This document shows, one piece after another, positions 10,093 to 29,840 of a DNA stretch of 31,201 nt. A model generated the notes under the pieces. That model searched no databases and had not been told where the DNA came from. It saw only the letters and a list, made by a program, of their open reading frames with translations. The number at the start of each line of letters is the position of its first letter. Positions within the stretch are counted from its first letter, which is position 1. The stretch is from IMG/VR virus record IMGVR_UViG_3300044821_000025, positions 1-31,201 of that record; one strand, written 5' to 3'. The translations under genes and the position numbers were made by a program. The DNA comes from a virus.

Positions 10093-10748
10093 GGTAAGCT
10101 CGGCATCGGAAACTCAAGATCATTAAGTTGCATCATAAGATCTGATTTCATCCTAGAAGCCACATGAGTCTTTAACTGGGATAATTCAGCCTCATAATCC
10201 TGCCAATATTGCTGTGACTTCTGAAATTCCTGCTGTGAATCTAATAGGTCCGCTGTACACCAATTCTCGATTGTACGGTTAAATGGGTCGGGAATTTGGA
10301 GAATTTGAGTATCAGAAGTAAGATTATCTTTAGCCACCTTATAGAATAAGTCAAAAGACAATCCAGCACCAGACTTATAGTGTGGGAAGAAGCTAAGATA
10401 TTGGTAGTTTACAATGTATGCAAACCAAGGCGTTCCATTACTAGCTTCCCAATCAAATCGGTACTTATCCAAGAATCTAGAATCTATAACAGGCACCCAC
10501 CGATTTGTAGCCTTATTGAATATTCTTGTTATCCGCCAGAAACCAGGTATAGTATTATACAAATCATAATATAGCTGACCATTAACAAAGGTGATATTGG
10601 TTGTGGCCTCATAGCATTGCGAATTGAGTAGTATTTCATCATAACCATCCTGTAGAGATTCCAATACACTAGTCTGGTCGAAGTAGATACCTAAAGCATC
10701 ATTCAGATTTTGCTGAATGGTATTTTGCATCTCAAGACGGTTTACCAT
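10089..10748 (-). CDS. Head-tail adaptor-like protein, 219 aa
   Basis: The protein starts MVNRLEMQNTIQQNLNDALG, followed by a 'SVLESLQDGYDEI' helix. This 'helix, xxDxYDEI' layout is seen in adaptor or connector proteins encoded near the nozzle gene in many uncultured podoviruses. The centre is Tyr/Phe/Trp-rich (about 50-140) and the C-terminus is a charged helix (QQYWQDYEAELSQLK). I chose ATG at 10748 because it overlaps the tailspike stop (TGG TAA within GCATGGTAAAC), giving the same coupled arrangement as its neighbours. An in-frame extension upstream to 10841 would overlap the tailspike far more and adds an unlikely hydrophobic cysteine-rich leader. Function by analogy and position; moderate certainty. 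Confidence 0.55.
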   Translation of the reverse strand: MVNRLEMQNTIQQNLNDALGIYFDQTSVLESLQDGYDEILLNSQCYEATTNITFVNGQLYYDLYNTIPGFWRITRIFNKATNRWVPVIDSRFLDKYRFDWEASNGTPWFAYIVNYQYLSFFPHYKSGAGLSFDLFYKVAKDNLTSDTQILQIPDPFNRTIENWCTADLLDSQQEFQKSQQYWQDYEAELSQLKTHVASRMKSDLMMQLNDLEFPMPSLP

Positions 10749-12430
10749 GCAACCACATCCTTTGGGAAGCGGGTCCAGTGATTCGTAGCATAGCAAACAT
10801 AAAAGAATAGTCCATCTAAAGAAATAGAACGAAAAGTACAAGCAGCTGTACTATTAGCAGGAGGAGTAACCCATTGTGGCACATTTCCGCCCGCTAGAGT
10901 CATATTTATGTGCCCGCTAACGGTAAGATCATTCTGCATAGTAATATTACCAGATGGGGCAATACGCATCTTCTCCACACCATTTACATAGAAGATACAA
11001 TCTCCATTAGTAGCAAGAGCTGATAATCCACAAATTCCAATAGTATTATCTGCTGCTACTTCCATCATCCCGATTACTGTGCCACCAGTATCCTTTCCTG
11101 CATAAGCCTGATTGTTTGGTACCAATAAGGAATTGGAGAAATCAGTTTGAAGTGCTGTTGGGCCTACGAAATGATTCCCAAATACATTCATCATTACATA
11201 GGTACTGTTAGCGGGCACGGATATAGTAGAACCAGAATTCTCTTCCATAATAACATTACTATAGAAGTTAACTCCCGCTGAGAACCTAATTGATTGCTGT
11301 GTACCTAGATTGATCCAGCAATTACTAATTGTACCTGGAGAGCCTGTTGTATCAATAAGATACTGAGAAATAGCACCATTATCCCTAACCTTTATATGGT
11401 TATGCTTCATTCCCCCATTAGTCTCAAACATCATTAGACTAAAGTTAAGGGCAGGTAAATCAGTATCTATATTAGAATATTCTAAGGAACCATATATATC
11501 AGCTAGTTGTGGATATCCCTCAATATGGCCCGTAAACATGAATCTGGTATTGGCACCCTTGAGTAATAGTGCATAGAAATATACAACATTAGTACTTGTA
11601 AGGTAGATATGATTACAAGTTACATCTACAGTTCCATCAAGCGTAAGAGCTGCATTGCGGGCACCAAATAGCGCATTCGATGAGCCTGAAAAAGAAATCT
11701 GACTAACCGAAGTTGTACCACCATACATTGTACGATAAGCAGAAGTAACAGAGTAGATATTTGTAGCAGTAATAACTACTGGTGCATCGGCCTGTACAAT
11801 TAGGGTATCATAATTCTGTAACTCTGCACCAAAATTGTATAATCCTATTGTTCCCCTACCTCCATTAGCGGTCGCATCCGATCCTAAATACACATAAACA
11901 TCTAACATCCTAATATACTGGGATAGATTTGTAGTAGTTCTACCTTCTAGTACACCGATCTTATTAGGTGTATTGATCCCAGAGTAGAACTTAAGATGTT
12001 CTAAAGTTACATTGAAACTACCTGAAAGATCTACACAAGCCCTAACCCCAGTATCACAATAGATTGCGGACCCATTAGAATTTTCTCCCTCTATTGTTAG
12101 TCCCGCTTTCTGGGTTATGTTCAAACCAGCTGTTATTCTGCATCCGCTAACGCTACGATTGACAAATACCTTAGATACCCCAGAATCTATAGCCCGCTGG
12201 ATCGCTGTAGTATCATCTGTAGTTCCATCACAAACTGCCCCAAAATCCATAATGGAAACGTGTTCATTCAGCTTATCCCTTACATTACGGGTAACGGCAT
12301 TATTGTGGTCATTTGTATATGGAACTAGATCCGCATTCTGGTGCTTAATCTGTTTGCGAGCATCAATCTGCTGCTGACCAAAACCTAATAATGTGAAGAT
12401 ACAAAGTATTAGAACAGGTCTCTTTTCCAT
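10742..12430 (-). CDS. Tailspike-like pectate-lyase-fold protein with N-terminal signal peptide, 562 aa
   Basis: Residues 58-82 (VSIMDFGAVCDGTTDDT then AIQRAID) are the signature start of the pectate-lyase-3 right-handed beta-helix fold found in phage tailspikes that bind or cut polysaccharide. Residues about 90-430 are repeating short beta strands (ITQKAGLTIEGEN, GNHFVGPT) of the helix. The C-terminal 60 residues (NSTAACTFRSISLDGLFFYV) resemble a small fibre tip. Unusually the N-terminus MEKRPVLILCIFTLLGFGQQ is a Sec signal peptide (basic n-region, 14-residue hydrophobic core), where a tailspike would normally have a virion-binding domain. It overlaps the methyltransferase by 22 bases (ribosome site AGGAAGAG). 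It may be an exported depolymerase rather than, or as well as, a virion part. Catalytic residues are not identifiable by eye. Confidence 0.6.
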   Translation of the reverse strand: MEKRPVLILCIFTLLGFGQQQIDARKQIKHQNADLVPYTNDHNNAVTRNVRDKLNEHVSIMDFGAVCDGTTDDTTAIQRAIDSGVSKVFVNRSVSGCRITAGLNITQKAGLTIEGENSNGSAIYCDTGVRACVDLSGSFNVTLEHLKFYSGINTPNKIGVLEGRTTTNLSQYIRMLDVYVYLGSDATANGGRGTIGLYNFGAELQNYDTLIVQADAPVVITATNIYSVTSAYRTMYGGTTSVSQISFSGSSNALFGARNAALTLDGTVDVTCNHIYLTSTNVVYFYALLLKGANTRFMFTGHIEGYPQLADIYGSLEYSNIDTDLPALNFSLMMFETNGGMKHNHIKVRDNGAISQYLIDTTGSPGTISNCWINLGTQQSIRFSAGVNFYSNVIMEENSGSTISVPANSTYVMMNVFGNHFVGPTALQTDFSNSLLVPNNQAYAGKDTGGTVIGMMEVAADNTIGICGLSALATNGDCIFYVNGVEKMRIAPSGNITMQNDLTVSGHINMTLAGGNVPQWVTPPANSTAACTFRSISLDGLFFYVCYATNHWTRFPKDVVAW

Positions 12431-12927
12431 ATCTCTTCCTGTGATAGTGGTCTCTTTCCTTTTACTGCCCGCACAATGGTGTTATAATCTTCTTTAACCT
12501 CGGGCATCGACTTTACATCTTTAAATCCCAGTTGTACAAGTAAATGCTCAAAATGAGGAGTATACATCAACGAAATATGGGTATCAGCGGGATATAGTTG
12601 TCTTCCATATATCGTAGCGGCCCAAAATTCTCTCATTCCCTTCTTGTTATCAATGAAGTTCTGTGCACACTTCACAAATTCAGGATAAGCAACATACAGA
12701 ACACCACTGTCTGTCATTACACGCCAAATCTCAAGTAAAATATTGGGATGTAACCTCTTAGGCAGGTGCTCTATTACATGGAAGAAATAAACTTTTTCTA
12801 CAGAATCGTCTGGAAACGGAAGAGGCTTTGTGAAATCTGCCAGGACGTCGGGTTTGACAGACTTCTCGATATCTAAATTTATAGCATTAGGCATTTTGTT
12901 AACGCCACAGCCAAGATTCAGAATCAT
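12409..12927 (-). CDS. SAM-dependent class I methyltransferase, 172 aa
   Basis: Motif I is MILNLGCGVNK at the very N-terminus (LNLGCG residues 3-8, the S-adenosylmethionine-binding loop), with an acidic residue after strand 2 in INLDIEKS. The FFHVIEHLP segment near residue 50 is the usual 'H-x-x-E-H' of methyltransferase-11-like domains. Length 172 is short but complete for a stand-alone core fold. The substrate cannot be read from the sequence. It overlaps the glycosyltransferase upstream by ATGA and the tailspike downstream, so its target is probably a surface glycan or a virion glycan rather than DNA, because no DNA-target recognition region is present. That substrate idea is inference. 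Confidence 0.7.
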   Translation of the reverse strand: MILNLGCGVNKMPNAINLDIEKSVKPDVLADFTKPLPFPDDSVEKVYFFHVIEHLPKRLHPNILLEIWRVMTDSGVLYVAYPEFVKCAQNFIDNKKGMREFWAATIYGRQLYPADTHISLMYTPHFEHLLVQLGFKDVKSMPEVKEDYNTIVRAVKGKRPLSQEEIWKRDLF

Positions 12928-13691
12928 TTGAAAGCCTCTTCCATCTCCTTTGCGTAATCATGTCCCCTGTCTCCGTCTACTGGATTGGGGTTCATCATTG
13001 CCGCAAGTTCGGGAAATCCTTCTTCAAACTGTTTCTTTAGAAGAGCAGCATTCTTATCACAAACAATTAGCGGGTCCAGAATATGACCAGTAGGAACTCC
13101 AGGGTGCATATAGATGGAAATATTACGGCGTCCGTAATGCCTCTGTAACTTCATGCAACAATATACATCTTCTGTACAATTTGGCATTGTAACGAAATAA
13201 GGCGGCTCGACGTCCTTAAATATACTAACCTTAAAGAGGGCTGTAGCATTCCCAATCGCATCAAGCCTTACCAATCCTTTTTCATCCACGTAATGTGCCC
13301 AATCATCGAAATATTCCAGCCCAGAAGGTAGCGGGCCATTAGAGGTAAATAACTTGTCCAGCGGATCAATGAAGGACATATTGTGATAAGGATAGCCGCG
13401 AATAATAGTGTTGGCCATGATGATGTCTTTGTCAGCTTCCTTCAGTGCACGATATGTGGAGGGTGACAGGATCATATCATCATCAATAAAATATATGTAA
13501 TCAGCTTCATTCCTAAGGGCATGAACTACTGCTGTATTACGCATATTGTCGATTGAAGTTCGGATGGGGTTATACAGCATGAAAGTATCATCTGTATCTC
13601 TCCCCATCCTAAACCATTCTTGACAATGGGAGGAATATGCCTGTCCTTTTACTTCAGTTAGGGTATTCACTCCTACAAGTGTTTTACTCAT
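12924..13691 (-). CDS. GT-A type glycosyltransferase, 255 aa
   Basis: A GT-A-like fold is indicated by the DxD-type metal/nucleotide-sugar site FIDDDMILSP (residues 69-78, with three aspartates) at the end of a strand. It follows a typical helix-strand start (TSIDNMRNTAVVHALRNEADYI) as in family 2-like enzymes. Further conserved-looking elements are an acid-bearing CTEDVYCCMKL helix near residue 170 and a His near GHILDP. It lacks a transmembrane segment, so it is a cytoplasmic enzyme. The acceptor is unknown. Its position next to a methyltransferase and a tailspike suggests it decorates a virion or cell-surface sugar. Ribosome site GGGAGGAAT precedes the start. Confidence 0.65.
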   Translation of the reverse strand: MSKTLVGVNTLTEVKGQAYSSHCQEWFRMGRDTDDTFMLYNPIRTSIDNMRNTAVVHALRNEADYIYFIDDDMILSPSTYRALKEADKDIIMANTIIRGYPYHNMSFIDPLDKLFTSNGPLPSGLEYFDDWAHYVDEKGLVRLDAIGNATALFKVSIFKDVEPPYFVTMPNCTEDVYCCMKLQRHYGRRNISIYMHPGVPTGHILDPLIVCDKNAALLKKQFEEGFPELAAMMNPNPVDGDRGHDYAKEMEEAFK

Positions 13692-13711
13692 ATTCCTCCC
13701 ATTCTTACATT

Positions 13712-14086
13712 TTACGCAGTTGGTGGAGCAGGCGGAGTAACAACAATCCCAGCACTTTTTGTAACTAAAGCCTTACTCGCAGACTGAACTGCATCCAAAG
13801 CAGCCTGATCTGAAGGAGATAGAACTCCAGGAGAATTCTGGAAATCGGTAATCAGCTTATCCAAAGCTGCAATTCCAGTAACAATAGCATCCAGCGTAGC
13901 GGAAATAGCGGAAAGATCCGCCCTTTGCCCAACGGCCCAGTCTGTAATCTGTGACATGAAATCTTGTTCCTTTTTGATATTCTCTGTTAACAAGTCCAAT
14001 AGTTTGGAAAATCCAGTCCGGTTAGTGATTAGATCTTCTAAAGCCCTAGCAATTTGTGTGAACTCATAGCTTATTTCCGACTTCAT
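13712..14086 (-). CDS. Small coiled-coil structural protein, 124 aa
   Basis: The sequence QRADLSAISATLDAIVTGIA then ALDKLITDFQNSPGVLSPSD is an Ala/Leu/Ile-rich helical repeat with a loop and a Ser-Pro-x-Asp-Gln-Ala-Ala-Leu helix, a pattern I know from small coiled-coil proteins of phage structural regions. The C-terminus is a short Thr/Pro-rich tail (VVTPPAPPT). No membrane segment, so it is not a holin. It overlaps the previous gene by 23 bases. The start ATG is preceded by GGAGG at the right distance. The function is not established. It could be a small virion or assembly factor. Confidence 0.5.
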   Translation of the reverse strand: MKSEISYEFTQIARALEDLITNRTGFSKLLDLLTENIKKEQDFMSQITDWAVGQRADLSAISATLDAIVTGIAALDKLITDFQNSPGVLSPSDQAALDAVQSASKALVTKSAGIVVTPPAPPTA

Positions 14087-14312
14087 TCGCCTCCCCTTCT
14101 TTTACCCCTCTAGCGAAGGCTTCTTTCTTTGTTATTTCAACTAGAGCATCCATCTTAGAATTAGTATTCTTTTCCAAACTTACCATTGCATCCTTAACTC
14201 TTGCTAGATGATCCTGATTTCTCTTTGCCAAGATATTATTAAGGATGCCAAGTATCGCTGCAATTGTAGATCCAGTAGCCGATATTAAAGAAACAATTAC
14301 AGCATCACTCAT
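14064..14312 (-). CDS. Small single-TM protein with coiled-coil tail, 82 aa
   Basis: Residues about 3-30 (VIVSLISATGSTIAAILGI) form one hydrophobic membrane segment, followed by a charged amphipathic region (about 35-80; AKRNQDHLARVKDAMVSL) likely to be a cytoplasmic coiled coil. This arrangement is found in small holin-like or spanin-like proteins, but sequence alone does not discriminate. It starts within an ATGA overlap with the upstream TM protein and overlaps the downstream coiled-coil gene by 23 bases, so three small helical proteins are translated as a coupled set. No endolysin is seen beside them, which weakens a lysis cassette reading. Confidence 0.45.
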   Translation of the reverse strand: MSDAVIVSLISATGSTIAAILGILNNILAKRNQDHLARVKDAMVSLEKNTNSKMDALVEITKKEAFARGVKEGEANEVGNKL

Positions 14313-14683
14313 TTGTGCCTATTCTCTAAAAAGTTATCCACAACATAGTTATCAACCAAGCAAGGTTTTGCTCGCAATTCGATGGTCAATTCCTTGATAG
14401 AAGCTGCAAGATCAATCCTTGTACGTTCTGCTTCTTCAATAATCTTCCTAAGCTCCTGATTACTAGTTGCTGCTGTGGTCATAGCTGCTGTTACAGTTTC
14501 AGCCATTTTAAGGAGTGCTTCATCCTTAATCCTGGTCTGTTTCCAAAGTGCAACAATACCTAGACCTAGCATCCCTATTACACCCACATCTTTACTGGAA
14601 CCGATAATATTTACAGCATCTCCAGCTGCTTCAAGTAAGAACATTTGTGTTAGAAAGGGGATAATCCCCATAATTATCCCCAT
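14309..14683 (-). CDS. Small membrane protein with coiled coil, 124 aa (holin- or spanin-like?)
   Basis: Two hydrophobic stretches at the N-terminus (GIIMGIIPFLTQMFLL, residues 2-17; GVIGMLGLGIVALW, about 33-46) are followed by a long charged helix from about 50 to 110 (ETVTAAMTTAATSNQELRKI) and a mostly polar C-terminus. Holin/XhlA-like or membrane-anchored assembly roles are possible. It lies directly after the capsid-decoration gene (9-base gap, ribosome site AAAGGA) and forms an ATGA overlap with the next small TM protein. Two start codons in tandem (ATG at residues 1 and 5) might give two products, a feature known in some holin/antiholin pairs, but that is speculation here. Confidence 0.4.
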   Translation of the reverse strand: MGIIMGIIPFLTQMFLLEAAGDAVNIIGSSKDVGVIGMLGLGIVALWKQTRIKDEALLKMAETVTAAMTTAATSNQELRKIIEEAERTRIDLAASIKELTIELRAKPCLVDNYVVDNFLENRHK

Positions 14684-14692
14684 CCAATTCCT

Positions 14693-15241
14693 TTACATGG
14701 AGCGTACAAATACTTTCGCGTAGACGCCAATTCCTGAGACAGCAGACCATGTTCCATAAATTCCAGTGCCCACACTTGCAGTAAGCGTAGCACCAGAAGC
14801 TAGGGAAGTTTGGGAAGGCATTGCAAAGTTAGCAATCCACGGATAAAGTGAATCACTATTTGCAGTTCCCGCTGTTGACCTGGACAATCCACCGTTAACC
14901 GATTCCGCCTGCAAAATATCCCCAACAGCAATAGCGGGATAAGATACATACGAAATGGTAGAAGCGGAGCGTGTCATCAATGTAATCTTTGCATTGAGAA
15001 CAAGCCCATAAGCGATAATATCATCAACAGCCCCTGCAGAAATACTTCGTGGTGCAATTCCTGCAAAAAGTCCAGCCTGTTGATTTGCCGCAGCGGTCGC
15101 AATGTTTACAACATCAACTCCATCATTGGTATTGTTAGCATTAAAAGATGCAACAGCCCCAGCGGGAATTGCTACTGTATCCGCATTGCGGACCGTAATT
15201 AGTAGCTGATTTGCTTTCGCGCCTAGAGTCGGTGATCGCAT
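14693..15241 (-). CDS. Capsid decoration-like protein, 182 aa
   Basis: A beta-rich protein of the kind encoded directly after the major capsid gene: NQLLITVRNADTVAIPAG, with VGDILQAESVNGGLSRS later, ends in a short strand. The composition (Ala, Ser, Thr, Val, Ile; few charges) and position suggest a decoration or head-stabilising protein that caps the capsid surface. I do not recognise the exact family. It has an excellent ribosome site (TAGGAGAAAATA before ATG), consistent with high expression. The 50 bases before it, after the capsid stop, hold only a weak 4-bp inverted repeat (GTCC-GGAC) and no strong terminator. Confidence 0.5.
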   Translation of the reverse strand: MRSPTLGAKANQLLITVRNADTVAIPAGAVASFNANNTNDGVDVVNIATAAANQQAGLFAGIAPRSISAGAVDDIIAYGLVLNAKITLMTRSASTISYVSYPAIAVGDILQAESVNGGLSRSTAGTANSDSLYPWIANFAMPSQTSLASGATLTASVGTGIYGTWSAVSGIGVYAKVFVRSM

Positions 15242-15291
15242 TATTTTCTCCTAAACTTAAAGTATTCTCACCTATTAAAGTCCCTAAGGAC

Positions 15292-16383
15292 CTAGATGTA
15301 CCAAGTCAAAGTGCGAGGGAGATTAAACCAAACACCTTGCTTCCTGCGGTTAGATACGCAAACATTTCCCATCCACAGGATATGAGCAACTCTGGCATCC
15401 TGATTTACGGGCTTCATGAATGGAGTAGCAACGAAATTGGTCTGATCGTCATACTTAACTGAGATGAACTTTGTATTCAAGAAATACATTGTTCCCACAC
15501 CAGTATTCGGAGTCAGGGTTCCATTCATAACATCGGGAACAAATTCGTCCCAGGTAAGAATGGCACGGCGGAATTTAATATTCTCAAAGGGGAACTTATC
15601 GTCAGAATCTGATTGGCGACGGTATACCTGATAATACGCAGTGTTCACAATCTGGTAAGTATACTGATCACACAGAATAAAATCGGGCGGACCACCAGGG
15701 CCCTTTGAACAGGAATTGTAGACCTTATCCATTTCCAGTAGAAAATCACTGGCTTTAGAAGCGGTAGACAAGGCAGTCTGGAGATACTGATTCTGCCACC
15801 AAGAATAACTATTTTGGTTGATACTACCAACCATTGTACTTGAAGTAGGATCAGATTTTACAAGCATTGGAAGTGGTTCTACACCCAATGCTCCATTAAA
15901 TGGCGAAGAATCATTTGTGGTAAGAGATGCACCACCACTTGCAAGACTTCCTTGTAGGCAAGCCTTTGCGAATCGTTCTTTAATCCCAAGTTCAGCCTGC
16001 ATGATCTTGGCTTTCAGAAGATCAATAATCCGATCGGTGGCGGAATTCTGTCTTTCTTCCTTACGAGAGATCGCAACGGGAACTGCAAGTTGGCGCCAAT
16101 CGAAGAAAGCAGAAGTAATTCCATCTGTCGGATCAGTATTAAGAGTATCGTACCCTTCGTACCAATCCGCAGTTCCAAGAGCGTACATTAGCGGGATCTG
16201 AATGGCAACTCCACCATCCAAACCTACATACATTCCATTTTCCTGTATGCGATAAAAGAACGCATTGGACTTAGAAATGTTATCCGTTAGGGTACGCTGA
16301 TAATTAAAGAGCGAAGTAGACAGAATAGCATCATAATTAATGGTATTCTGACTAGGCGCTGATGCTGAACCGTATGTACTCAT
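15292..16383 (-). CDS. Major capsid protein, 363 aa
   Basis: Protein of the size and shape of HK97-fold capsid proteins of podoviruses. The opening is a flexible polar arm (about 1-30), followed by a long helical/beta region, with phrases such as RIQENGMYVGLDGGVAIQIP, KIMQAELGIKERFAKACLQG (spine helix) and DQYTYQIVNTAYYQVYRR. It ends in beta strands (HILWMGNVCVSN then RRKQGVWFNLPRTLTW). It follows the scaffold and precedes the decoration gene, the standard order. No protease gene and no obvious cleavable delta domain are seen; a separate scaffold is present. Start is 12 bases after the scaffold stop. Identification rests on context and overall pattern. Confidence 0.75.
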   Translation of the reverse strand: MSTYGSASAPSQNTINYDAILSTSLFNYQRTLTDNISKSNAFFYRIQENGMYVGLDGGVAIQIPLMYALGTADWYEGYDTLNTDPTDGITSAFFDWRQLAVPVAISRKEERQNSATDRIIDLLKAKIMQAELGIKERFAKACLQGSLASGGASLTTNDSSPFNGALGVEPLPMLVKSDPTSSTMVGSINQNSYSWWQNQYLQTALSTASKASDFLLEMDKVYNSCSKGPGGPPDFILCDQYTYQIVNTAYYQVYRRQSDSDDKFPFENIKFRRAILTWDEFVPDVMNGTLTPNTGVGTMYFLNTKFISVKYDDQTNFVATPFMKPVNQDARVAHILWMGNVCVSNRRKQGVWFNLPRTLTWYI

Positions 16384-19264: not shown

Positions 19265-19444
19265 CTATTTCTCTAATTCTTCTGCTATCTTATTAGCTAA
19301 ATATTTAAGATCAATTTCTTGAAAATATGTCACAATATGAACAGGTAATTGATCTGTAACATCTGTTGGTAGCTTGAAGTAAGCTCCGAGTTTTTCAAAT
19401 TCATTTTCTAATACAGATAAGATTATAGTATCAATAGACGCCAT
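19265..19444 (-). CDS. Small acidic helical protein between terminase and portal, 59 aa
   Basis: Translation from ATG 19444 reads MASIDTIILSVLENEFEKLG and continues to a Glu/Leu/Lys-rich end, ...ANKIAEELEK, with TAG at 19265-19267. The start overlaps the terminase end by 14 bases in another frame, with GAGG four to five bases before ATG. The stop leaves an 11-base gap to the portal start. This tight fit and the amphipathic pattern support a gene. No family is recognised. Many phages carry a tiny protein between TerL and portal, so I suggest an accessory packaging or assembly factor, at low certainty. Confidence 0.6.
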   Translation of the reverse strand: MASIDTIILSVLENEFEKLGAYFKLPTDVTDQLPVHIVTYFQEIDLKYLANKIAEELEK

Positions 19445-20981
19445 GTACCCTCACACCAAACCTGGGAGAATAACCAGTAGCTTTATACATCTTTAATTGA
19501 TTCCTAAGATCACTAAATGAGTTTTCGGGAGCCCTAGGTTTTGATACTCCAGGGGAATTAAAATGTGATGCACAGTAATAACGTACTGGGTCATACGCGT
19601 GGTCCGTAACAGAATCATCCCGCTCATCGGAAAAAATGTCCTGACCGTTGATGGAGCCAATTTTCTTGCGCTTTTGAGCCCGCAATTGCTGGATTGCATG
19701 ATAACACCCCGATGGATATTCAGGACTCCTTTCGATAAAATATAATTTTGGTGCCCCAAATTCATGTGTTATAGGATGCTGCCAGCTCTGTGAGCTTCTC
19801 AATAATTCAGATATTCTATTCCTCGTCGCCATCTCATTGTTGTCAGCGGGCTCAAAGAATATCGGTGGTGCATCAATAGATTTATCCGAATATTCATCAC
19901 ATTGTGACCATCTTCCACCATACTTCTGCATGGTTTTCTTGGCACATTGCGGGTCAATTAGATTTTGGAGGTATCGCTCTCGCCCAGATAAGTCACTGAT
20001 AGCTTTTCTGTGATCCGATATAAGCGCGTTTGGCTGATAATATTCTCTATAGCAGTAGTAGTTTCCTTTGTAAGCAGAAAACCAAAGGCAACAAGTGGGG
20101 GCTGAATCTCCATGGTCCAAAACGCGCGCAAGATGTCCCTTTTCGATAATGGTTTCAACATATTTTGAATCAATATCCCTTCCAATTCTCAGTATACACT
20201 GGTCAGGAACCATGTGAATCTGACCACCTGGAATACCCCACTTACCTAAAACAAACCTATCCACCCATGTTTTGTCATTTTCCATCATGGTTTCAAGGAG
20301 TTCTGGATCAACTGTAGCAGTTGTAGTAGCTCCTTGAACCATAAAGTGATTCTTCTTATATTTTGTCTTCCATTCCTCCGAATCTGGATGGAAGCGTCGA
20401 TAAATCCAGTGTAATTCAGAATCAGGATTACACAGAATTGCCATATAATTGGGAACTTTGGGTCGGCCATCCACGAAGCGTGGCCAGTTTTCGTTTCCCT
20501 TCAGAAGTTCTGGAGGAACTTTCGCCCCATCCCAACGACCGACCCTAGCGGACAACATTAGAAACATAGCCTCTGTTATTTCTTCAGCCTGATCAATTAG
20601 TACACTATTTACTTCAAGGCCACGAATCATTCCATCGTCCGTATCCTTCAAATTCATCCAAATTACTTCCGAACCATTGACGAAAACAGTTTTATTGAGA
20701 GAATCTGCTCTATTACCTCCCATGTTTGCGGCATATAGCTCTGGCGGACAAAGCCCCGGTTTGAAGAAAGTTCGCATTGTTGATTGACGCAGCTTACTTT
20801 CCTCAAAACGGGCAATGGCTACCTTATAACCGGGGAAGGTTGAGAGAAGGTAGACCATTTTCTGACATCCCACATATGTCTTTCCGTTACCAAAACCACC
20901 AGAAAAGCAGGAATTCCTAACCGTGAGGTTAAAGAACTCCTTCTGTTCTGGTGTACGGAAAGATATGGGGATTTGAATCAT
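19431..20981 (-). CDS. terL: Terminase large subunit, 516 aa
   Basis: ATP-dependent DNA packaging motor and headful nuclease. The Walker A motif is GGFGNGKT (residues 28-35) and Walker B is VLIDQAEE (about 127-134), giving the ATPase half. The nuclease half begins near 285 with RVLDHGDSAPT (D289, D292), then a central acid in LIDPQC (343) and a late acid cluster ending TDHAYDPVRYY near 470-480, as expected for a RuvC-like nuclease. Length 516 fits phage TerL. It sits directly upstream of portal and downstream of a short basic protein (ATGA overlap). A matching small subunit is not adjacent. The best candidate lies 6.6 kb upstream (27627-27947), separated by the exported-protein cassette. Confidence 0.9.
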   Translation of the reverse strand: MIQIPISFRTPEQKEFFNLTVRNSCFSGGFGNGKTYVGCQKMVYLLSTFPGYKVAIARFEESKLRQSTMRTFFKPGLCPPELYAANMGGNRADSLNKTVFVNGSEVIWMNLKDTDDGMIRGLEVNSVLIDQAEEITEAMFLMLSARVGRWDGAKVPPELLKGNENWPRFVDGRPKVPNYMAILCNPDSELHWIYRRFHPDSEEWKTKYKKNHFMVQGATTTATVDPELLETMMENDKTWVDRFVLGKWGIPGGQIHMVPDQCILRIGRDIDSKYVETIIEKGHLARVLDHGDSAPTCCLWFSAYKGNYYCYREYYQPNALISDHRKAISDLSGRERYLQNLIDPQCAKKTMQKYGGRWSQCDEYSDKSIDAPPIFFEPADNNEMATRNRISELLRSSQSWQHPITHEFGAPKLYFIERSPEYPSGCYHAIQQLRAQKRKKIGSINGQDIFSDERDDSVTDHAYDPVRYYCASHFNSPGVSKPRAPENSFSDLRNQLKMYKATGYSPRFGVRVHGVY

Positions 20982-21402: not shown

Positions 21403-22659
21403 TTAAACTGTCATTGGAAGTGGAAATAAACCATTAGTACCTAATGGAGATCCCATAGTTATATTGAATAGCTGAACTGGACCAACTTGATTATCTACAC
21501 CTACTGCACCAGTATATTTCCCTGTATTCGTCGAGACTAGGAAACCTTCTACTTTAGCCGTAGCGGGCCAAATCCTAATTAACATTAAGTGCATAGATGA
21601 TGTAGTACCATCTAATGTATTAGGATTTCCTGAGCAGAAATTAGCCGTATCTCCTGTTCCCGCTTGACCTTGGCAGTTACAAAATAACTGGTGAACAGTC
21701 TGGCCTTTAGGAGAAGTAGAAGTTATTGCCGGTTTCTGCCAAACCCATCCACTTGTATAACCATCAATATCATGCCCACAAGTTATCATTGCTAAATTAG
21801 GCCAAGTGGTTAATCCATTCCAAGTTCCATCAGAACCGGACCACATTTGATTCCCGGCATTTGAATCGGGTGCATCAGCCATGGAATAAAATGCTGTACT
21901 ATAAGTATCTCCACGAGCAAACTGTGTACCATTTGTATGGAGATATCCATGAGTAGTTATCCAACATTCGTGATCTGGATAAGTATTGTGAATTCCTCTT
22001 GCCCAAACTAAAACAGCAGATCGAGGAAATAACTCTACAGATATTATGAGTATCTTTCTACCCTGAATTAACACTCTCATATAACTATTTGCAGTAGAAA
22101 TCGGATAAGTTCCATCAGGATAGGTTCCACCGTAAAAAGCTACATCCCCACTACCTAAATCCATTCCCCCAGAATATTTTGCGGCTGTATTGGTAGGGCT
22201 CCAAGCTCCATTCTTATCATCACGGAACATATAACCAAGCTGACTACGGTTAATTGTGCTTGCATTAAAGTAATCATGATTACCACAGCAGCGGGCCACA
22301 AACATTTTAGGAGTTGCAGCTTCAGCAATATTATATGCAGTTACAGAATTGATCTGTGCTTGATTATAGCTATTGTTATCGGTAGAATTAACACAATCTC
22401 CAACTGTAATAAAACCTTTAATGTTAAGGGCTTGTCCTAATACACTCAAGTTTCTATTAGTTACAGCCCAGTTTATTAGTTGATTATAAGCTGTTGCTCC
22501 TGCACAAGTTGAACCATCAGCAAGATTTTGTGGGTCAGGTACCATTGCAATTGTAAAAGGAGTAGTAGAGATAGCGGACGCACGTTGTGTGAATAAAGAT
22601 GCGCCCGCTAACACCTTTCCAAATCTTCTACGAGTTATGTTGTATCTTCCTCTTCTCAT
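21403..22659 (-). CDS. Tat-exported calcineurin-like metallophosphoesterase, 418 aa
   Basis: Probable exported enzyme that cleaves phosphate esters with a two-metal site. The N-terminus MRRGRYNITRRRFGKVLAGA holds a twin-arginine motif (TRRRFGK, residues 9-15) before a hydrophobic stretch, a Tat signal. Metal-site motifs in order are MVPDPQN (D42, with Q where classic enzymes have DxH), TVGDCVN (D88), CCGNHDY (N127, H128, D129), THGYLH (about 230-240) and ITCGHDIDG (about 290-300). Together these match calcineurin-like phosphoesterases, with the DxQ variant known in some secreted members. Start overlaps the upstream stop as ATGA. The substrate is unknown; a cell-wall or extracellular phosphodiester is plausible. 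Such an enzyme inside a phage structural operon is odd. Confidence 0.75.
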   Translation of the reverse strand: MRRGRYNITRRRFGKVLAGASLFTQRASAISTTPFTIAMVPDPQNLADGSTCAGATAYNQLINWAVTNRNLSVLGQALNIKGFITVGDCVNSTDNNSYNQAQINSVTAYNIAEAATPKMFVARCCGNHDYFNASTINRSQLGYMFRDDKNGAWSPTNTAAKYSGGMDLGSGDVAFYGGTYPDGTYPISTANSYMRVLIQGRKILIISVELFPRSAVLVWARGIHNTYPDHECWITTHGYLHTNGTQFARGDTYSTAFYSMADAPDSNAGNQMWSGSDGTWNGLTTWPNLAMITCGHDIDGYTSGWVWQKPAITSTSPKGQTVHQLFCNCQGQAGTGDTANFCSGNPNTLDGTTSSMHLMLIRIWPATAKVEGFLVSTNTGKYTGAVGVDNQVGPVQLFNITMGSPLGTNGLFPLPMTV

Positions 22660-23939
22660 AACATTTTATGCTTTACAGCAGAACCCACTACACTAGTATC
22701 ACCAATTGTTAACCAACCAAATTCTCTAGCAGTATCAACAACATTCCAATTAATCACAGCCGATCCAGTGGAAAATGATACCGTATTTACAGATGCTTGC
22801 GTTGTAGGTGCTGCACTAGCTTCTGTCATCGTTCTAAATAATAAATTCTGCACCATCGAAGTAGAAGCTACTTGGATAGTTGCCCCATTTTTCAATCCCA
22901 CAAAATTGCTGAAATAATTAGTTCCATCTGAACCACCAATAGATAATCTTGCATGGGTTACATTAGTAGCAGAATTGGTATGATTAAAGGAAATCATCGA
23001 AATACCCACTGGAGTATTACCAGTTGTTGTAAATGTTTGATTACCAGTAACAACGGGCTGTGTAGAAACTCCGCCAATCCAAGTTCCACCCGCTATCGCT
23101 AAAAATACAAGATCAGGACCAGTATTACCAGCTGTTATAGACCAATTTAGGGTAAAAGTTGTAGCACCCATTGCAGTGCAAGCCGCTTGCCATGCAATTG
23201 TAGTTGTAGAAGATGATTCCCAAACTAAAAGATTAGGTAGTTGCCATGAAGAAGTAACTGATGTTGCAACTGCTGTTGTTCCCTGTGTTCCAATTCCTAT
23301 TGTTTGTAAGGTATCAGTTCCTACACAAAATCCATAGGATAACCCCCAATTCGTAGCAGGGGTAGCAGGAGTATTTGAAGAACTAGCAGTTGCACCAGAA
23401 GTGAAAAATACTACGCTAGGCTGAAATCCAACCGTGTAATTCTGAGTACCTGTCGCAGCAGGAGTTGATGCAGTTATAACGCGGGCAGTAATTGAAGAAC
23501 CACCATCTGCTTCATAGTTAAAAATTCTAGAACCAGCATCACCAGTCCATGTTGCTGTAAATCCTGTCCCAGTAATTGTTATATTTGCTTCAGCTACTAA
23601 TGTTCCCGCTGCTTCAGTATAGAATGAAAGCCTATTTAAGGTAGTATTGCGCTTAGAAACAGTATTTTGTGTTGCACCACCGGAATCAGTAAATCCTGCC
23701 CATGAAGATGCACAATTAGTTGCAGAAGAATAGAATGCACAAAATCCAATCATCATGCGGGCACTTGCAACGGACCCTGTAGTAGTTTGATCTGTTGCAA
23801 AAATTCTTAGTGCAGTAGGCTGCCATCCAATAGTTACAGTTGTTGCACCCTGAACAAAAGAACCAACAGCATGCTTTACATCGCCCCTAACTAGCGGGCA
23901 CCCTAACAAAAATAGAATTGTGAGAAACCGAAGGTTCAT
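22656..23939 (-). CDS. Exported beta-repeat protein with 'GFxPxxV' modules, 427 aa
   Basis: The start MNLRFLTILFLLGCPLVRGD is a signal sequence: basic residue, hydrophobic core and a possible lipobox LLGC at residues 11-14. The mature part contains related beta modules with the strand pattern 'G-F/W-Q-P-x-x-V/L-x-x-F/I': VTIGWQPTALRIFATD (about 35-50), YTVGFQPSVVFFTSGA (about 165-180) and a third, more divergent unit near NTPVGISMISFNHTNSA. I know this module from phage and secreted proteins with shell or adhesive roles. The body is Thr/Ser/Ala-rich. The start (residue 5 of a longer frame) overlaps the previous stop as ATGA. It could be a surface adhesin or a virion-associated fibre; nothing distinguishes these. 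Confidence 0.55.
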   Translation of the reverse strand: MNLRFLTILFLLGCPLVRGDVKHAVGSFVQGATTVTIGWQPTALRIFATDQTTTGSVASARMMIGFCAFYSSATNCASSWAGFTDSGGATQNTVSKRNTTLNRLSFYTEAAGTLVAEANITITGTGFTATWTGDAGSRIFNYEADGGSSITARVITASTPAATGTQNYTVGFQPSVVFFTSGATASSSNTPATPATNWGLSYGFCVGTDTLQTIGIGTQGTTAVATSVTSSWQLPNLLVWESSSTTTIAWQAACTAMGATTFTLNWSITAGNTGPDLVFLAIAGGTWIGGVSTQPVVTGNQTFTTTGNTPVGISMISFNHTNSATNVTHARLSIGGSDGTNYFSNFVGLKNGATIQVASTSMVQNLLFRTMTEASAAPTTQASVNTVSFSTGSAVINWNVVDTAREFGWLTIGDTSVVGSAVKHKML

Positions 23940-24673
23940 TGGTGCCCCCAAATCTGTAGTTTGATATTCTTAGTAGTAGTATTTGCAGTTCCCGATAGAT
24001 CTAGTTGCTGGTGAGATGTAATAGTGGAAGTTGTCATATTGCCCGCAACAGCATATCCTGTGGTTCCATCAGTTGTTCCATAGTTTATTGGATTTACACA
24101 AACCATGGTCATTACATTAGCACCACCATTAATCTTAACTAGAACAGTCTGAGAACCAGCATCAGACAAACACATTATTTCAGTAAGAGTTTTGGTGTTT
24201 AGATCATTATTCAGGATTCCATGAGATGTGAGATCACCAGTTACCAGTGCAATACCATTCTCTGTTCCTACTTCGTATCCCGCTATTCGATAAGTAACAG
24301 AAGGTCCAGTTCCTCCTGTAGAACCTGTTGCTCCTTGCGGGCCTACTCCCCCGGTTGTAATTGAACAGACACCAGAAGTTACACCAGAAAATGTAATTGT
24401 AGCAATATTAGAACTAGTTGCTACTACAGAAGTTACAGAAGTGGAAGCACCTGTAGAACCTAAAAGATTTCCAGCACCATCATAGCAAGAAACCCAAGGA
24501 GTTGTAGTACCCAATCCATGATTACAAGCTAGCGGGCCAGCTGTAGCGGAAACTGTACAAGAATAAGGATTATTTCCTGGATTACTAGATCCTCCCCCAC
24601 CCCCGGAACCGCCGATTACTAGTTGAGCAAAAACTGAAGTAGAATAAAGAAAAACTAATAGTCGAAGGCTCAT
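23936..24673 (-). CDS. Exported collagen-like fibre protein B, 245 aa
   Basis: A signal peptide, MSLRLLVFLYSTSVFAQ, cleaves after SVFA (V at -3, A at -1), then a GGSGGGGGS linker. The mature domain (PYSCTVSATAGPLACNHGLG through YEVGTEN) is clearly homologous to protein A upstream. A short collagen-like run, GPQGATGSTGGTGPS, follows, then a beta-rich C-terminal domain ending KNIKLQIWGHQ. Collagen-like triplets often trimerise in phage fibres. The start (codon 5 of a longer frame) overlaps the previous gene at ATGA, and the last residues of A and B are almost identical, as expected for a tandem duplication. The role is inferred to be a fibre or adhesin tip; location is exported, or virion after export. 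Confidence 0.6.
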   Translation of the reverse strand: MSLRLLVFLYSTSVFAQLVIGGSGGGGGSSNPGNNPYSCTVSATAGPLACNHGLGTTTPWVSCYDGAGNLLGSTGASTSVTSVVATSSNIATITFSGVTSGVCSITTGGVGPQGATGSTGGTGPSVTYRIAGYEVGTENGIALVTGDLTSHGILNNDLNTKTLTEIMCLSDAGSQTVLVKINGGANVMTMVCVNPINYGTTDGTTGYAVAGNMTTSTITSHQQLDLSGTANTTTKNIKLQIWGHQ

Positions 24674-25737
24674 TGATGCCCCCAAAATTGGAGTCTAATA
24701 TATTTTGTAGTTCCGTTAGCAGTCCCTGTTAAATCCCATTGATCGTGTGCAGCGACTGTGTTCACCATAACTTGAGATTGTGCACAACCAGTAGAACCAT
24801 CTGTAGCAGCACAAGAAAAAGAAGCATGAGGATAGCAATTCATTGTAAAAATAGTGGAAGCATTAACACTTACTGTAATCGGTTGCGTTCCAGTATCAGT
24901 AGTACAAGTAGCTTCTGTAACTAGTTTTGGAATAGAATCATTAATAAAGAAAGAATATACAGTCAGGTCAGAAGTGAGAAGTGGAACTGAGGAGAATATT
25001 TCATAACCGCCCAATCTAAATGTAACCGTAGGACCAGTAACACCTTGTGAACCTAGCGGACCAGTAGGGCCAACACCACCAGTACTTATTGTACAAGATC
25101 CATTTGTAGTTCCTGAAAATGTAACAGTTGCAGTATTTGCTGTAGTAGCTACTACAGATGTTACAGAAGTTGTGGCTCCGGTACTACCTAAAAGATTGTG
25201 GGAATTATCATAGCAGGCAACCCAAGGAGTCCAAGTCCCTAATCCATGTGTGCAAGAAACTGGTCCCGCTGTCGCAGTTATCAGACAGGAAAATGGGGTA
25301 TTTCCAACTCCCCCGCCAGCGGGAACCCAACTTGTATAAGAAATTCCTGCTACAGGTTTTGTAAATGAAAGTGTCTGCCCATCCATTGTAGGATCAAGTG
25401 GGGGCAAATAAACTATAGTTTGGGAACCACGAGAATCAGGAGCAGCAAATGCGAAGAAATTAGTAGGATCACCCTGAGGATACCAGCGGACTATTCCTTT
25501 AGCGGGTGATAAAGATGCAGTAATTCCATTATTACATAATAACGGATTACCGAAACTAGTAGAACAATCTGTTGCTAAAAATCCGCCAGCACCGTCTGCT
25601 ACATTTAATGTTCCCGCTACACCAGAAGAAGATCCTGCACCAGTAACAGTTCCACCACCTCCTCCGCCCGAACCCCCAGTTACAAGTTGGGCTTGAATAG
25701 GTAGCAGACTAAACATTACTAGTGCAAAGCACTTCAT
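24670..25737 (-). CDS. Exported collagen-like fibre protein A, 355 aa
   Basis: Signal peptide MKCFALVMFSLLPIQAQ is followed by a GGSGGGGGG linker. An extra beta-rich domain (about 40-140, including SPAKGIVRWYPQGDPTNFF) precedes the domain shared with protein B: GLGTWTPWVACYDNSHNLLG here against GLGTTTPWVSCYDGAGNLLG in B. A collagen-like GPTGPLGSQGVTGPT run follows, and the C-terminus ends KYIRLQFWGHQ. The shared domains look about two-thirds identical by eye, so A and B derive from a tandem duplication, A keeping an extra N-terminal domain. Starts on ATGA of the upstream gene. Likely a trimeric fibre with a receptor-binding tip; function inferred. Confidence 0.6.
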   Translation of the reverse strand: MKCFALVMFSLLPIQAQLVTGGSGGGGGGTVTGAGSSSGVAGTLNVADGAGGFLATDCSTSFGNPLLCNNGITASLSPAKGIVRWYPQGDPTNFFAFAAPDSRGSQTIVYLPPLDPTMDGQTLSFTKPVAGISYTSWVPAGGGVGNTPFSCLITATAGPVSCTHGLGTWTPWVACYDNSHNLLGSTGATTSVTSVVATTANTATVTFSGTTNGSCTISTGGVGPTGPLGSQGVTGPTVTFRLGGYEIFSSVPLLTSDLTVYSFFINDSIPKLVTEATCTTDTGTQPITVSVNASTIFTMNCYPHASFSCAATDGSTGCAQSQVMVNTVAAHDQWDLTGTANGTTKYIRLQFWGHQ

Positions 25738-26204
25738 TTTACAGACTCAGTCCACATTATAACTACTGAAACTGTTCCGGTAATACTATTGGTCCGCACG
25801 GTAAGATTGCTATTGGCTACCGTTGTTAGATATACCTTAGAAAGATCAATTGTTACAGTCCCCCCAGCGGGAATCTGATAATTTCCAATCACTGTTCCAG
25901 CACTAGAATCAGAATTGTAATAACAGGTTGCATTCGATGTAGCGGACGAATCAGGACTAACACAAGTAAATGAAGTAGCTGTAGCCTTTCCACCATTTAT
26001 TTCGATGGTAAAAGTAGTTGCAACAGTAGAAGCAAAAGTAACTCCTACAAATCGGTAGTTCTTTGTAACAGACGCAGCAGTTCCAGGCGCTTGAACTGTA
26101 TATACCGCAGCAGCACCAGAAGGAGAATCAGAATGTGTTGCTACAAATGTCTGGCCCGCTAACGGGAAAAGAGACAAAATAGAGAGTAAAGAGTATTTTT
26201 TCAC
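25734..26204 (-). CDS. Exported small beta-rich protein, 156 aa
   Basis: Starts with GTG (initiator), overlapping the stop of the previous gene as GTGA. The N-terminus KKYSLLSILSLFPLAGQTF is a Sec signal peptide with cleavage likely around AG/QT. The mature domain (about 20-156) is Thr/Ser/Val/Ala-rich, beta-stranded, with two cysteines near the middle (TSFTCVS, NATCYYN) that could form a disulfide, which fits an exported protein. No family is recognised. It opens the run of exported proteins and probably works with them, for instance as a minor surface protein. The base upstream of GTG provides a moderate ribosome site (GTAGGTAAAAAGAA). Confidence 0.5.
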   Translation of the reverse strand: MKKYSLLSILSLFPLAGQTFVATHSDSPSGAAAVYTVQAPGTAASVTKNYRFVGVTFASTVATTFTIEINGGKATATSFTCVSPDSSATSNATCYYNSDSSAGTVIGNYQIPAGGTVTIDLSKVYLTTVANSNLTVRTNSITGTVSVVIMWTESVK

Positions 26205-26341: not shown

Positions 26342-26584
26342 TTAAACTCCTAAAGCGGACGCAATTACCGCTCCACCACCATGAAAATTAGGAGGAAGTG
26401 TAGAAGCAGAAGTAGAACCAAGCCCTGCCCGCTGGATTTCAGTAAACAGCGCAGCGGAATCTATACCTTTTGACTTAATTTCTTGCATATTAGCTACCAA
26501 TTTACAAAAATAAATCATTTCTAGCTTCAAATTAGCTAGAGTTTCAGCATTTACCGCTGTTTCTAGTGTCTGATCACGCGCCAC
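26342..26584 (-). CDS. Hypothetical protein, 80 aa, GTG start
   Basis: I place the start at GTG 26584 (reading (M)ARDQTLETAVNAETLANLKL), just inside the end of the previous gene, because a longer reading to 26650 would start in the middle of that gene with an unlikely Leu/Trp-rich leader. The protein is mostly helical with a short Gly/Ala-rich end (NFHGGGAVIASALGV). No family recognised. Its stop TAA is directly followed by ATG of the next gene with a good AGGAG ribosome site. The start choice is uncertain (GGAG about 10 bases upstream of GTG). Function unknown. Confidence 0.5.
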   Translation of the reverse strand: MARDQTLETAVNAETLANLKLEMIYFCKLVANMQEIKSKGIDSAALFTEIQRAGLGSTSASTLPPNFHGGGAVIASALGV

Positions 26585-26864
26585 TGGGTTTCTTCTCCAT
26601 TTCCTGCTCCAAATCAGCTGCAAGAGGCTTAGGAAGACCAACAAGAACAACCTTTCTGTTATCCTGGGAAGAAAGAAAAGTCATGTATTTGCGGGCTAGA
26701 GCTAGTGCATTAACAGCAGAAGTCGCCTTATAATGTTTGGTCCGCAGGACGGGACCATCTTTGTAGTTAATGACATAAATGTCAGAGACTCCGCCATTTG
26801 TTGGAGTCAATTTAGAGTCTAGAATGTTGTTTACGATCCCGGTAACGGGAACTTGAGTTTCCAT
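26574..26864 (-). CDS. Hypothetical protein, 96 aa
   Basis: Small mixed alpha/beta protein: METQVPVTGIVNNILDSKLT, a YVINYKDGPVLRTKHYKA strand pair, an Ala/Leu helix (SAVNALALARKYMTFL), then a KVVLVGLP strand and an acidic/basic end (EQEMEKKPSGA). No family is recognised. It starts one base after the previous stop, with AAGGATAAA before ATG giving a good ribosome site. It belongs to a run of small genes between the sigma factor and the exported-protein cassette. Function unknown. Confidence 0.5.
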   Translation of the reverse strand: METQVPVTGIVNNILDSKLTPTNGGVSDIYVINYKDGPVLRTKHYKATSAVNALALARKYMTFLSSQDNRKVVLVGLPKPLAADLEQEMEKKPSGA

Positions 26865-27626: not shown

Positions 27627-27947
27627 TCAACGGGGAATAAGAATCTGCATAGCAGAGGTTCCTTCTTCTGCGCCCGCAAAAGAGAATTGAATTGCAATGG
27701 TGTTTCCACCAGACCGTTCCGGTTCCAATGCACCGTGAACTTGTAGTGCCTTTTCGATTACACGCAAGCGGGAAGGATTGTCGTCGGTATAGTTGAGAAT
27801 CTCTGACATCTTAGCAGCAATTTCCTCAAGCGATAAACCCGCTTGATCCAATATTTGCTTGGCAACTTTCTTGCCTTCAGAGTCTGGGGCCAGAAGGCCC
27901 TGGAAATCATTTCTCGTTAGTTGTAGTTGTGGTTTTAGAATCGGCAT
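27627..27947 (-). CDS. Putative terminase small subunit-like protein, 106 aa
   Basis: Small helical protein (MPILKPQLQLTRNDFQGLLA, then LDQAGLSLEEIAAKMSEILN and NPSRLRVIEKALQVHGALEP) ending in a beta strand (NTIAIQFSFAGAEEG). The RLRVIEKALQVHGAL helix resembles the 'R-x-x-A-x-E-x-x-x-x-x-H/L-G-x-x' element of phage small terminases, which bind the packaging site. Start at ATG 27947 is chosen because AAAGGA lies five bases upstream. A longer reading to 28085 begins with TTG and a Cys/Pro-rich segment unlike the rest. If correct, TerS and TerL are unusually far apart (6.6 kb). The assignment is tentative. Confidence 0.4.
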   Translation of the reverse strand: MPILKPQLQLTRNDFQGLLAPDSEGKKVAKQILDQAGLSLEEIAAKMSEILNYTDDNPSRLRVIEKALQVHGALEPERSGGNTIAIQFSFAGAEEGTSAMQILIPR

Positions 27948-28071
27948 TGGATTCCTTTTCAAGGTGGGAATGATACAGGGAATAGCGGGAAATAAATGGG
28001 AGCAGAGGTGATTGGGATAAACGGAGGGAAATATCCTTTTCACTACAAACGTAAGTTTGTTCTGCTTCCAT
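27907..28071 (-). CDS. Possible small gene, 54 aa, overlapping the TerS-like gene
   Basis: Open frame from ATG 28071 to TGA 27907-27909, reading MEAEQTYVCSEKDISLRLSQ and ending in a Thr-rich polar tail. It fills most of the otherwise empty interval between the promoter-like site and the TerS-like gene and overlaps the latter by 41 bases. There is no good ribosome site (only GGG nine bases upstream), and no family is recognised, so this may be a chance frame within a leader RNA. Codons look similar to the neighbours. Confidence 0.3.
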   Translation of the reverse strand: MEAEQTYVCSEKDISLRLSQSPLLPFISRYSLYHSHLEKESNADSKTTTTTNEK

Positions 28072-28098
28072 ATTAAATCCCGCAAGGGAGGATCGCCA

Positions 28099-29405: not shown

Positions 29406-29840
29406 TTATTCGTCTTCGTTATCTTCGTTTTCCTCGTCTTCTGGAGTACTGGCAAGTGCAGCCGCTTTCAGTTGCTCCATAATCGGCGGAAAAGAACGAA
29501 TGAAACTGAGAACTTCCGCCGTCTGTTTCTTGCGGTCGTCCTTGGACGTTGCGAATTGCGGCAACATCCTGAATCCCGCGATAAACTTCATAATGAGGCT
29601 GGTGGAAACGCCTTCGATCGAGTTCTTGGCGTTCATCAAAGCCTCGCGGCTCAGACCCTTGTTTACGAGCGAGAGCAATCGGGCAGATTCGATATTAGCA
29701 AGCTGGCTCACATCGGTTAGCGCAACGGGCGCCTCATACTGTACTTCTTTGGTGACTTTCTCGAACTTATCGAGATCGAACACCCGTTTCTTAGCGGTCA
29801 ACTTCGTTGCCTCAGTGGTGGCCGCATTAGGAGTAGACAT
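29406..29840 (-). CDS. Self-contained gene, 144 aa, acidic C-terminus (moron-like)
   Basis: The protein is mostly helical: MSTPNAATTEATKLTAKKRV, KFEKVTKEVQYEAPVALTDV, then SARLLSLVNKGLSREALMNA and SLIMKFIAGFRMLPQ. It ends in a very acidic tail (STPEDEENEDNEDE). No family is recognised. The codons use more G and C in third positions than the neighbours (many GCG, CTC, GAG, TTC codons), and the dispersed AGCGGG motif is absent, which suggests recent acquisition. It has its own promoter (29898-29870) and strong terminator (29373-29390), the structure of a moron. The long plus-strand frame opposite (29326-29982) is Ser-rich and probably a shadow. A DNA-mimic or regulatory role from the acidic tail is speculation. 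Confidence 0.75.
   Translation of the reverse strand: MSTPNAATTEATKLTAKKRVFDLDKFEKVTKEVQYEAPVALTDVSQLANIESARLLSLVNKGLSREALMNAKNSIEGVSTSLIMKFIAGFRMLPQFATSKDDRKKQTAEVLSFIRSFPPIMEQLKAAALASTPEDEENEDNEDE

Follow-up and report, generated by a model that had tools for sequence, protein, structure and literature searches.

A cassette of predicted exported proteins in the late operon of a soil-type phage: candidate adhesins and envelope enzymes

The window analysed here, 31,201 bp of viral DNA with a GC content of about 41%, belongs to a soil-type phage. Five adjacent genes (21403-26204, minus strand) in this window encode proteins that begin with export signals, referred to here as SP1 to SP5. Our favoured reading, tentative and with somewhat less than an even chance of being right, is that this cassette may be a conserved modular set of late-operon genes whose products, exported adhesins and envelope enzymes, would join virions at lysis. 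Its basis lies in the sequence, namely the signals, gene coupling, conservation, a preference for Gln at the cleavage site, the Cys pattern and homology to virion domains. From these we infer export, disulfide formation, joining to virions at lysis and the substrate of the enzyme.

The five signals had been proposed from the letters alone as four of the Sec type and one of the Tat type, with a sixth exported protein in the tailspike at 12430. All six were recovered with a heuristic predictor. They combine a basic n-region with a hydrophobic core, have either small residues at -3/-1 or a twin-Arg motif, and begin at supported start codons. SP1 opens at 26204 with a GTG start and reads VKKYSLLSILSLFPLAG before the predicted cleavage site and QTF after it. 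The corresponding sequences are MKCFALVMFSLLPIQA and QLV for SP2 (start at 25737), MSLRLLVFLYSTSVFA and QLV for SP3 (24673), MNLRFLTILFLLGCPLVRG and DVK for SP4 (23939), and MEKRPVLILCIFTLLGFG and QQQ for the tailspike. SP5 (22659) is the Tat-type protein, with MRRGRYNITRRRFGKVLAGASLFTQRASA carrying the motif TRRRFGK and ending in ASA ahead of IST.

The starts of SP2, SP3, SP4 and SP5 are fixed, since each lies inside the preceding stop in a 4-bp ATGA overlap, and the cassette would therefore be translationally coupled. The next in-frame starts are at codon 9 in SP1, 7 in SP2, 53 in SP3, 10 and then 61 in SP4, 15 and 38 in SP5, and 60 in the spike. The signals of SP1 to SP4 and the spike survive a check of these alternatives, because no later start drops the signal and keeps the protein whole. 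In SP5, the overlap supports the annotated start, while a start at codon 38 is possible in principle. As a chance control, the same predictor called signals at 0 of 1,599 internal start codons. Among core genes of relatives it flagged 2 of 167, both encoding MCP. These two calls, in L022 and L048, came from over-extended ORFs and hence are not real signals. A scan of the first 18 kb of G001 found no signals. Export of the cassette products is well supported by sequence, and their translocation itself is presumed from it.

Hydrophobic N-termini can also be uncleaved anchors in the membrane or virion, or the true starts may lie downstream. Signal-like anchors of this kind do exist, as phage SAR endolysins show (PMC6116005), but we regard this explanation as very improbable here. 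The ATGA overlaps and the lack of suitable later starts speak against it, as do the Gln at the predicted cleavage site, the Tat motif of SP5 and the Cys pattern. Gln occupies position +1 in SP1, SP2, SP3 and the spike, and it does not in SP4 and SP5. When the clade's exported proteins were pooled with those from unrelated phages, a small residue followed by Gln occurred at residues 12-32 in 24 of 31, compared with 16% of internal 21-mers of those proteins (Fisher p 4e-13). This test was made without choosing a cleavage site; a rule that ignored the +1 residue put many cleavage sites in the wrong place and found Gln at 7 of 29.

Cys residues make up 1.64% of the mature exported proteins (n=30) and 0.86% of core proteins. 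Of the mature exported proteins, 22 have an even number of Cys, 6 an odd number and 2 none (even versus odd, p 0.002, an optimistic value because homologues are included), and core proteins have 55 even and 59 odd counts. SP1 and its homologues contain 2, 2, 0, 2 and 2 Cys. L101 has lost both Cys3 and Cys4 from its SP2 domain and has retained Cys1 and Cys2. Such a pattern is what disulfides made outside the cytoplasm would give, and their presence is presumed from it. The odd count of SP5 is in line with this, because a Tat substrate would fold in the cytoplasm before export.

The late operon is podovirus-like and runs on the minus strand in the order TerS-like gene, variable slot, TerL, portal, scaffold, MCP, transferase pair, tailspike and tail genes. 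Upstream of the slot lies the TerS-like gene (27627..28085, minus strand), whose C-terminus is conserved and whose true start is probably internal. A small conserved gene near TerS (26574..26864, minus strand) marks the upstream edge of the slot, and TerL (terminase large subunit; 19431..20981, minus strand) closes it. A promoter scan of the cassette region against shuffles gave no excess. The sequence-only reading had noted a TerS-TerL distance of 6.6 kb, which is correct, and had read it as looking like a standard packaging region with an insertion, which is not supported. TerS and TerL are non-adjacent in every clade member examined, with 0.5-7 kb of variable genes between them, so the slot is an old one and normal for the clade. 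Since L022, L023 and L035 carry lysis-type genes before TerL (lysozyme, NlpC/P60 and M15-like), it may be the lysis and accessory locus of the clade.

Two other features of the operon region were noted. A 144-aa protein without a known family (29406-29840), encoded upstream of the slot, is conserved throughout the clade. The transferase pair (12409-13691) comprises genes for a transferase-like protein (255 aa) and a methyltransferase-like one (172 aa). Most members of the clade retain it, with the MCP neighbour on one side and tail gene A on the other.

SP1 (25734..26204, minus strand; 156 aa) has a Sec signal at residues 1-17 with cleavage between Gly and Gln. It had been called a small beta-rich protein, and its AF2 model is indeed a beta-sandwich (pLDDT 74.5). 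Of its VIA neighbours, 9f4b_F2 ranks best (Z 10.0, 2.1 A across 96 residues); this is a baseplate protein of a Klebsiella phage, matched in its C-terminal domain. The remaining VIA neighbours are mostly generic jelly-rolls or beta-sandwiches. Foldseek found no match to the model in the PDB below E 0.001. SP2 (24670..25737, minus strand; 355 aa; signal 1-16, cleavage between Ala and Gln) is a fibre in which the signal is followed by a GGSGGGGGG linker, a 4-Cys domain, a short collagen-like stretch and a C-terminal knob. SP3 (23936..24673, minus strand; 245 aa; signal 1-16, cleavage between Ala and Gln) is its paralogue, with 53% identity over 211 aa. These two had been described as collagen-like fibres, but the collagen part amounts to only about 5 Gly-X-Y triplets; neither protein has a long Gly-X-Y run or a Pfam collagen match. 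No relation between SP1 and SP2 or SP3 was detected by profile comparison.

SP4 (22656..23939, minus strand; 427 aa; Sec signal about 1-19) is Ser/Thr-rich and, judging by its sequence, likely all-beta. The LLGC in its signal is a poor lipobox, through which the protein might be anchored as a lipoprotein. No relatives of SP4 were found in the phage collection, and SP2 alone found none as a viral-contig query. SP1, SP2, SP4 and the SP2 domain had no match among annotated phages, and SP2 to SP4 themselves matched no known virion protein.

The cassette recurs in relatives of the phage. In L002, the nearest one (TerL 64%, MCP 75%), the TerS-TerL slot encodes four exported proteins, namely two SP1 homologues and, after each of them, a large spike. 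L002 also has an exported 990-aa spike at a tail locus equivalent to that of the window spike. In L015, TerL is immediately preceded by ORFs for an SP1 homologue, a Gly-rich fibre and an SGNH hydrolase, and the tail region encodes more exported proteins. The more distant L029, L048, L019 and L034 have a single small exported protein before TerL. The homologues of SP1 share 39-44% identity (two copies, L002), 34-36% (L015) and 34% (E 7.6e-12; L098, record G005), and all of them carry signal peptides.

L098 is an unrelated phage with 66% GC, a different TerL, and a portal and coat judged by eye to be P22-like. It was reached, with L097 and L101, by a search with the 4-Cys domain of SP2, which is present in L097 and L098 and partly in L101. 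Just after TerL, L098 encodes the SP1 homologue, an SP2-type fibre with the mature start QVPVAPPVVTGGSGGGG, and a 580-aa protein with SGNH-esterase-like motifs (by eye), all with signals and ATGA overlaps. In L097, a TerL-like gene is followed by a CBM5/12-collagen fibre (collagen PF01391, 3.5e-14), a small protein and an alpha/beta hydrolase, and L101 has five exported proteins in a run. These arrangements indicate a recurring unit made up of a small beta protein, a Gly-rich fibre and an enzyme. The enzyme or spike at the end of the cassette varies from phage to phage. A genome scan with the MCP gave no match. One with TerL gave a single good match, the phage contig L095 (JAHFMX010000009.1; 42.6 kb) binned in MAG nzgw467, and a weak Gemmatimonadaceae match. 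L095 is a phage of the window's clade (TerL 41%).

SP5 (21403..22659, minus strand; 418 aa) is a putative metallophosphoesterase, as had been suggested, with DPQ, GD..N, GNHD, TH and CGHD blocks in order. This follows the order D-x-H/Q, GDxxN/D, GNHD/E, H and GHx of the metal-binding motif blocks in calcineurin-like metallophosphoesterases, from which SP5 differs by matching no Pfam, NCBIfam or PDB sequence. The AF2 model from the single sequence has a pLDDT of 33, too low for use, and SP5 alone found no relatives as a viral-contig query. Its motif blocks align with a secreted bacterial phosphoesterase on L118 at 23% identity. L118 (MT837443.1) is titled Bacteriophage sp. in GenBank, looks like a Bacteroides chromosomal fragment and encodes two secreted metallophosphoesterases. 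SP5, alone in the cassette, looks like a captured bacterial secreted enzyme.

The whole cassette might likewise consist of host secreted genes that were caught by recombination and play no set part in the life of the phage. The resemblance of SP5 to bacterial secreted phosphoesterases and the differences in the last enzyme among phages are in keeping with this, but we consider it unlikely. Several phages have SP1 and the SP2 domain near TerL, arranged in a shared order and in phage-type architectures, and region 21403-26204 agrees in GC with the rest of the window. Genes that are found in hosts, sporadic and unsyntenic, as captured cargo would be, describe SP5 only, and neither SP1 nor SP2.

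The tailspike (10742..12430, minus strand) is pectate-lyase-like, with a Sec signal at residues 1-18 and cleavage between Gly and Gln. It has a DFGA/TDDT beta-helix entry and matches the tailspike families phrog_20231 (8.6e-11), phrog_14558 (3.9e-10) and PF12708 (2.3e-5, below the curated cut-off). An N-terminal linker and a DFGA beta-helix start are common to this spike and the short-anchor depolymerases of Enterobacter phage phiKDA1 and Klebsiella phage pKP-M186-2.1. Once the signal is removed, the length ahead of DFGA is about equal, 44 residues in the mature window spike and 37-43 in the short-anchor spikes. In contrast to the window spike, related tailspikes from cultured phages lack a signal peptide in all 10 cases tested.

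Signals also precede virion-type domains in other phages. A 708-aa protein of L033 has a signal followed by a domain that matches a PHROG virion structural protein (1.1e-5), as well as Pelagibacter phage tail tube B and cyanophage structural proteins. The same L033-type virion domain follows a signal in a 246-aa protein of L015, and in a 714-aa protein in the tail cluster of G005 it stands between a signal and a beta-helix spike. A 144-aa protein of L019 has repeats in common with tail genes. Since signals stand directly ahead of virion domains and the mature spike has the length of a short-anchor spike, the signal looks like an addition to complete virion proteins. L015 additionally encodes a 1,546-aa signal-peptide protein without a family match (11682-16322), flanked by the MCP neighbour and the transferase pair.

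Tailed phages assemble in the cytoplasm, which counts against exported virion parts. That virions are finished there is the current view, and it would be challenged by cleavable signals on spikes and fibres. The sequence-only reading had offered captured host genes or exported virion or halo components. The latter is now the better supported, and the former is retained for SP5 alone. Exported virion parts are favoured because the cassette is conserved and shared with unrelated phages, because signals occur on virion-type domains, and because of the spike length.

In the proposed mechanism, the cassette, as part of the late structural operon, would supply the phage with accessory adhesins and with enzymes that act on the envelope. 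Sec would export the beta proteins, fibres and spike, and Tat the metalloenzyme, and signal removal would usually leave an N-terminal Gln. The Sec products would fold and form disulfides outside the cytoplasm. At lysis, exported fibres and spikes would meet the freed particles and attach through short N-terminal peptides or N-terminal virion domains, where they would serve in receptor binding and as depolymerases. The last enzyme of the cassette, a phosphoesterase here and an SGNH or alpha/beta hydrolase elsewhere, would act on envelope polymers of the host.

The main competing explanation is that the proteins are exported but never bound to virions, acting instead on the surface or matrix of the infected cell. 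Their roles could then be superinfection exclusion, receptor masking, or breakdown of capsule or biofilm that frees progeny. This is a distinct possibility, although on balance doubtful. The signal, Gln and Cys evidence fits it equally well, the hydrolases at the cassette end suit surface editing, and the L097 fibre carries a CBM5/12 domain. Furthermore, Porphyromonas gingivalis phages encode Q-rule secreted proteins, for which changed outer membranes have been proposed by the authors (PMC10367356). On the other hand, signals lie directly on virion-type domains and, in several phages, on spikes of the tail cluster, and a position in the late packaging and structural operon suits virion parts better than early surface editing.

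A broader proposal is that several unrelated tailed-phage lineages build the virion partly outside the cytoplasm, from spikes and fibres that are secreted by Sec or Tat, oxidised and N-terminally matured. We put this forward as conceivable rather than probable; virions would then pick up these parts only at or after lysis. A recurring cassette with cleavable export signals on its spikes, fibres and envelope enzymes would represent an unrecognised extracytoplasmic assembly step, or else a secreted arm of infection for matrix breakdown and surface remodelling. In practical use, a signal peptide with Gln directly after it, encoded beside TerL, would point to likely receptor-binding genes in uncultured soil phages. 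No description of exported tail spikes, singly or as a cassette, turned up in the literature searched, which does not prove that none exists.

Several known systems resemble the cassette in part. In Bacteroidetes, signal peptidase I leaves Gln at the new N-terminus, known as the Q-rule (PMC5837995). This N-terminal Gln is also predicted for SP1, SP2, SP3 and the spike of the present phage, and Q-rule signals would go with a Bacteroidota host that has glutaminyl cyclase. In contrast to that system, one cassette phage has 66% GC, and therefore the hosts may be broader than typical Bacteroidota. Signal-peptide and SAR endolysins, such as fOg44 Lys44 and P1 Lyz, are tailed-phage proteins that use host Sec, as the cassette proteins would (PMC6116005). 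These are lysis enzymes, whereas the window products are predicted adhesins and spikes. P. gingivalis phages encode five Q-rule signal-peptide proteins of unknown function (PMC10367356), whose Sec signals, likewise encoded by the phage, leave Gln as the first residue once removed, as predicted in the window. Unlike those proteins, the signals of the window lie on spikes, fibres and enzymes, and the cassette is common to unrelated phages.
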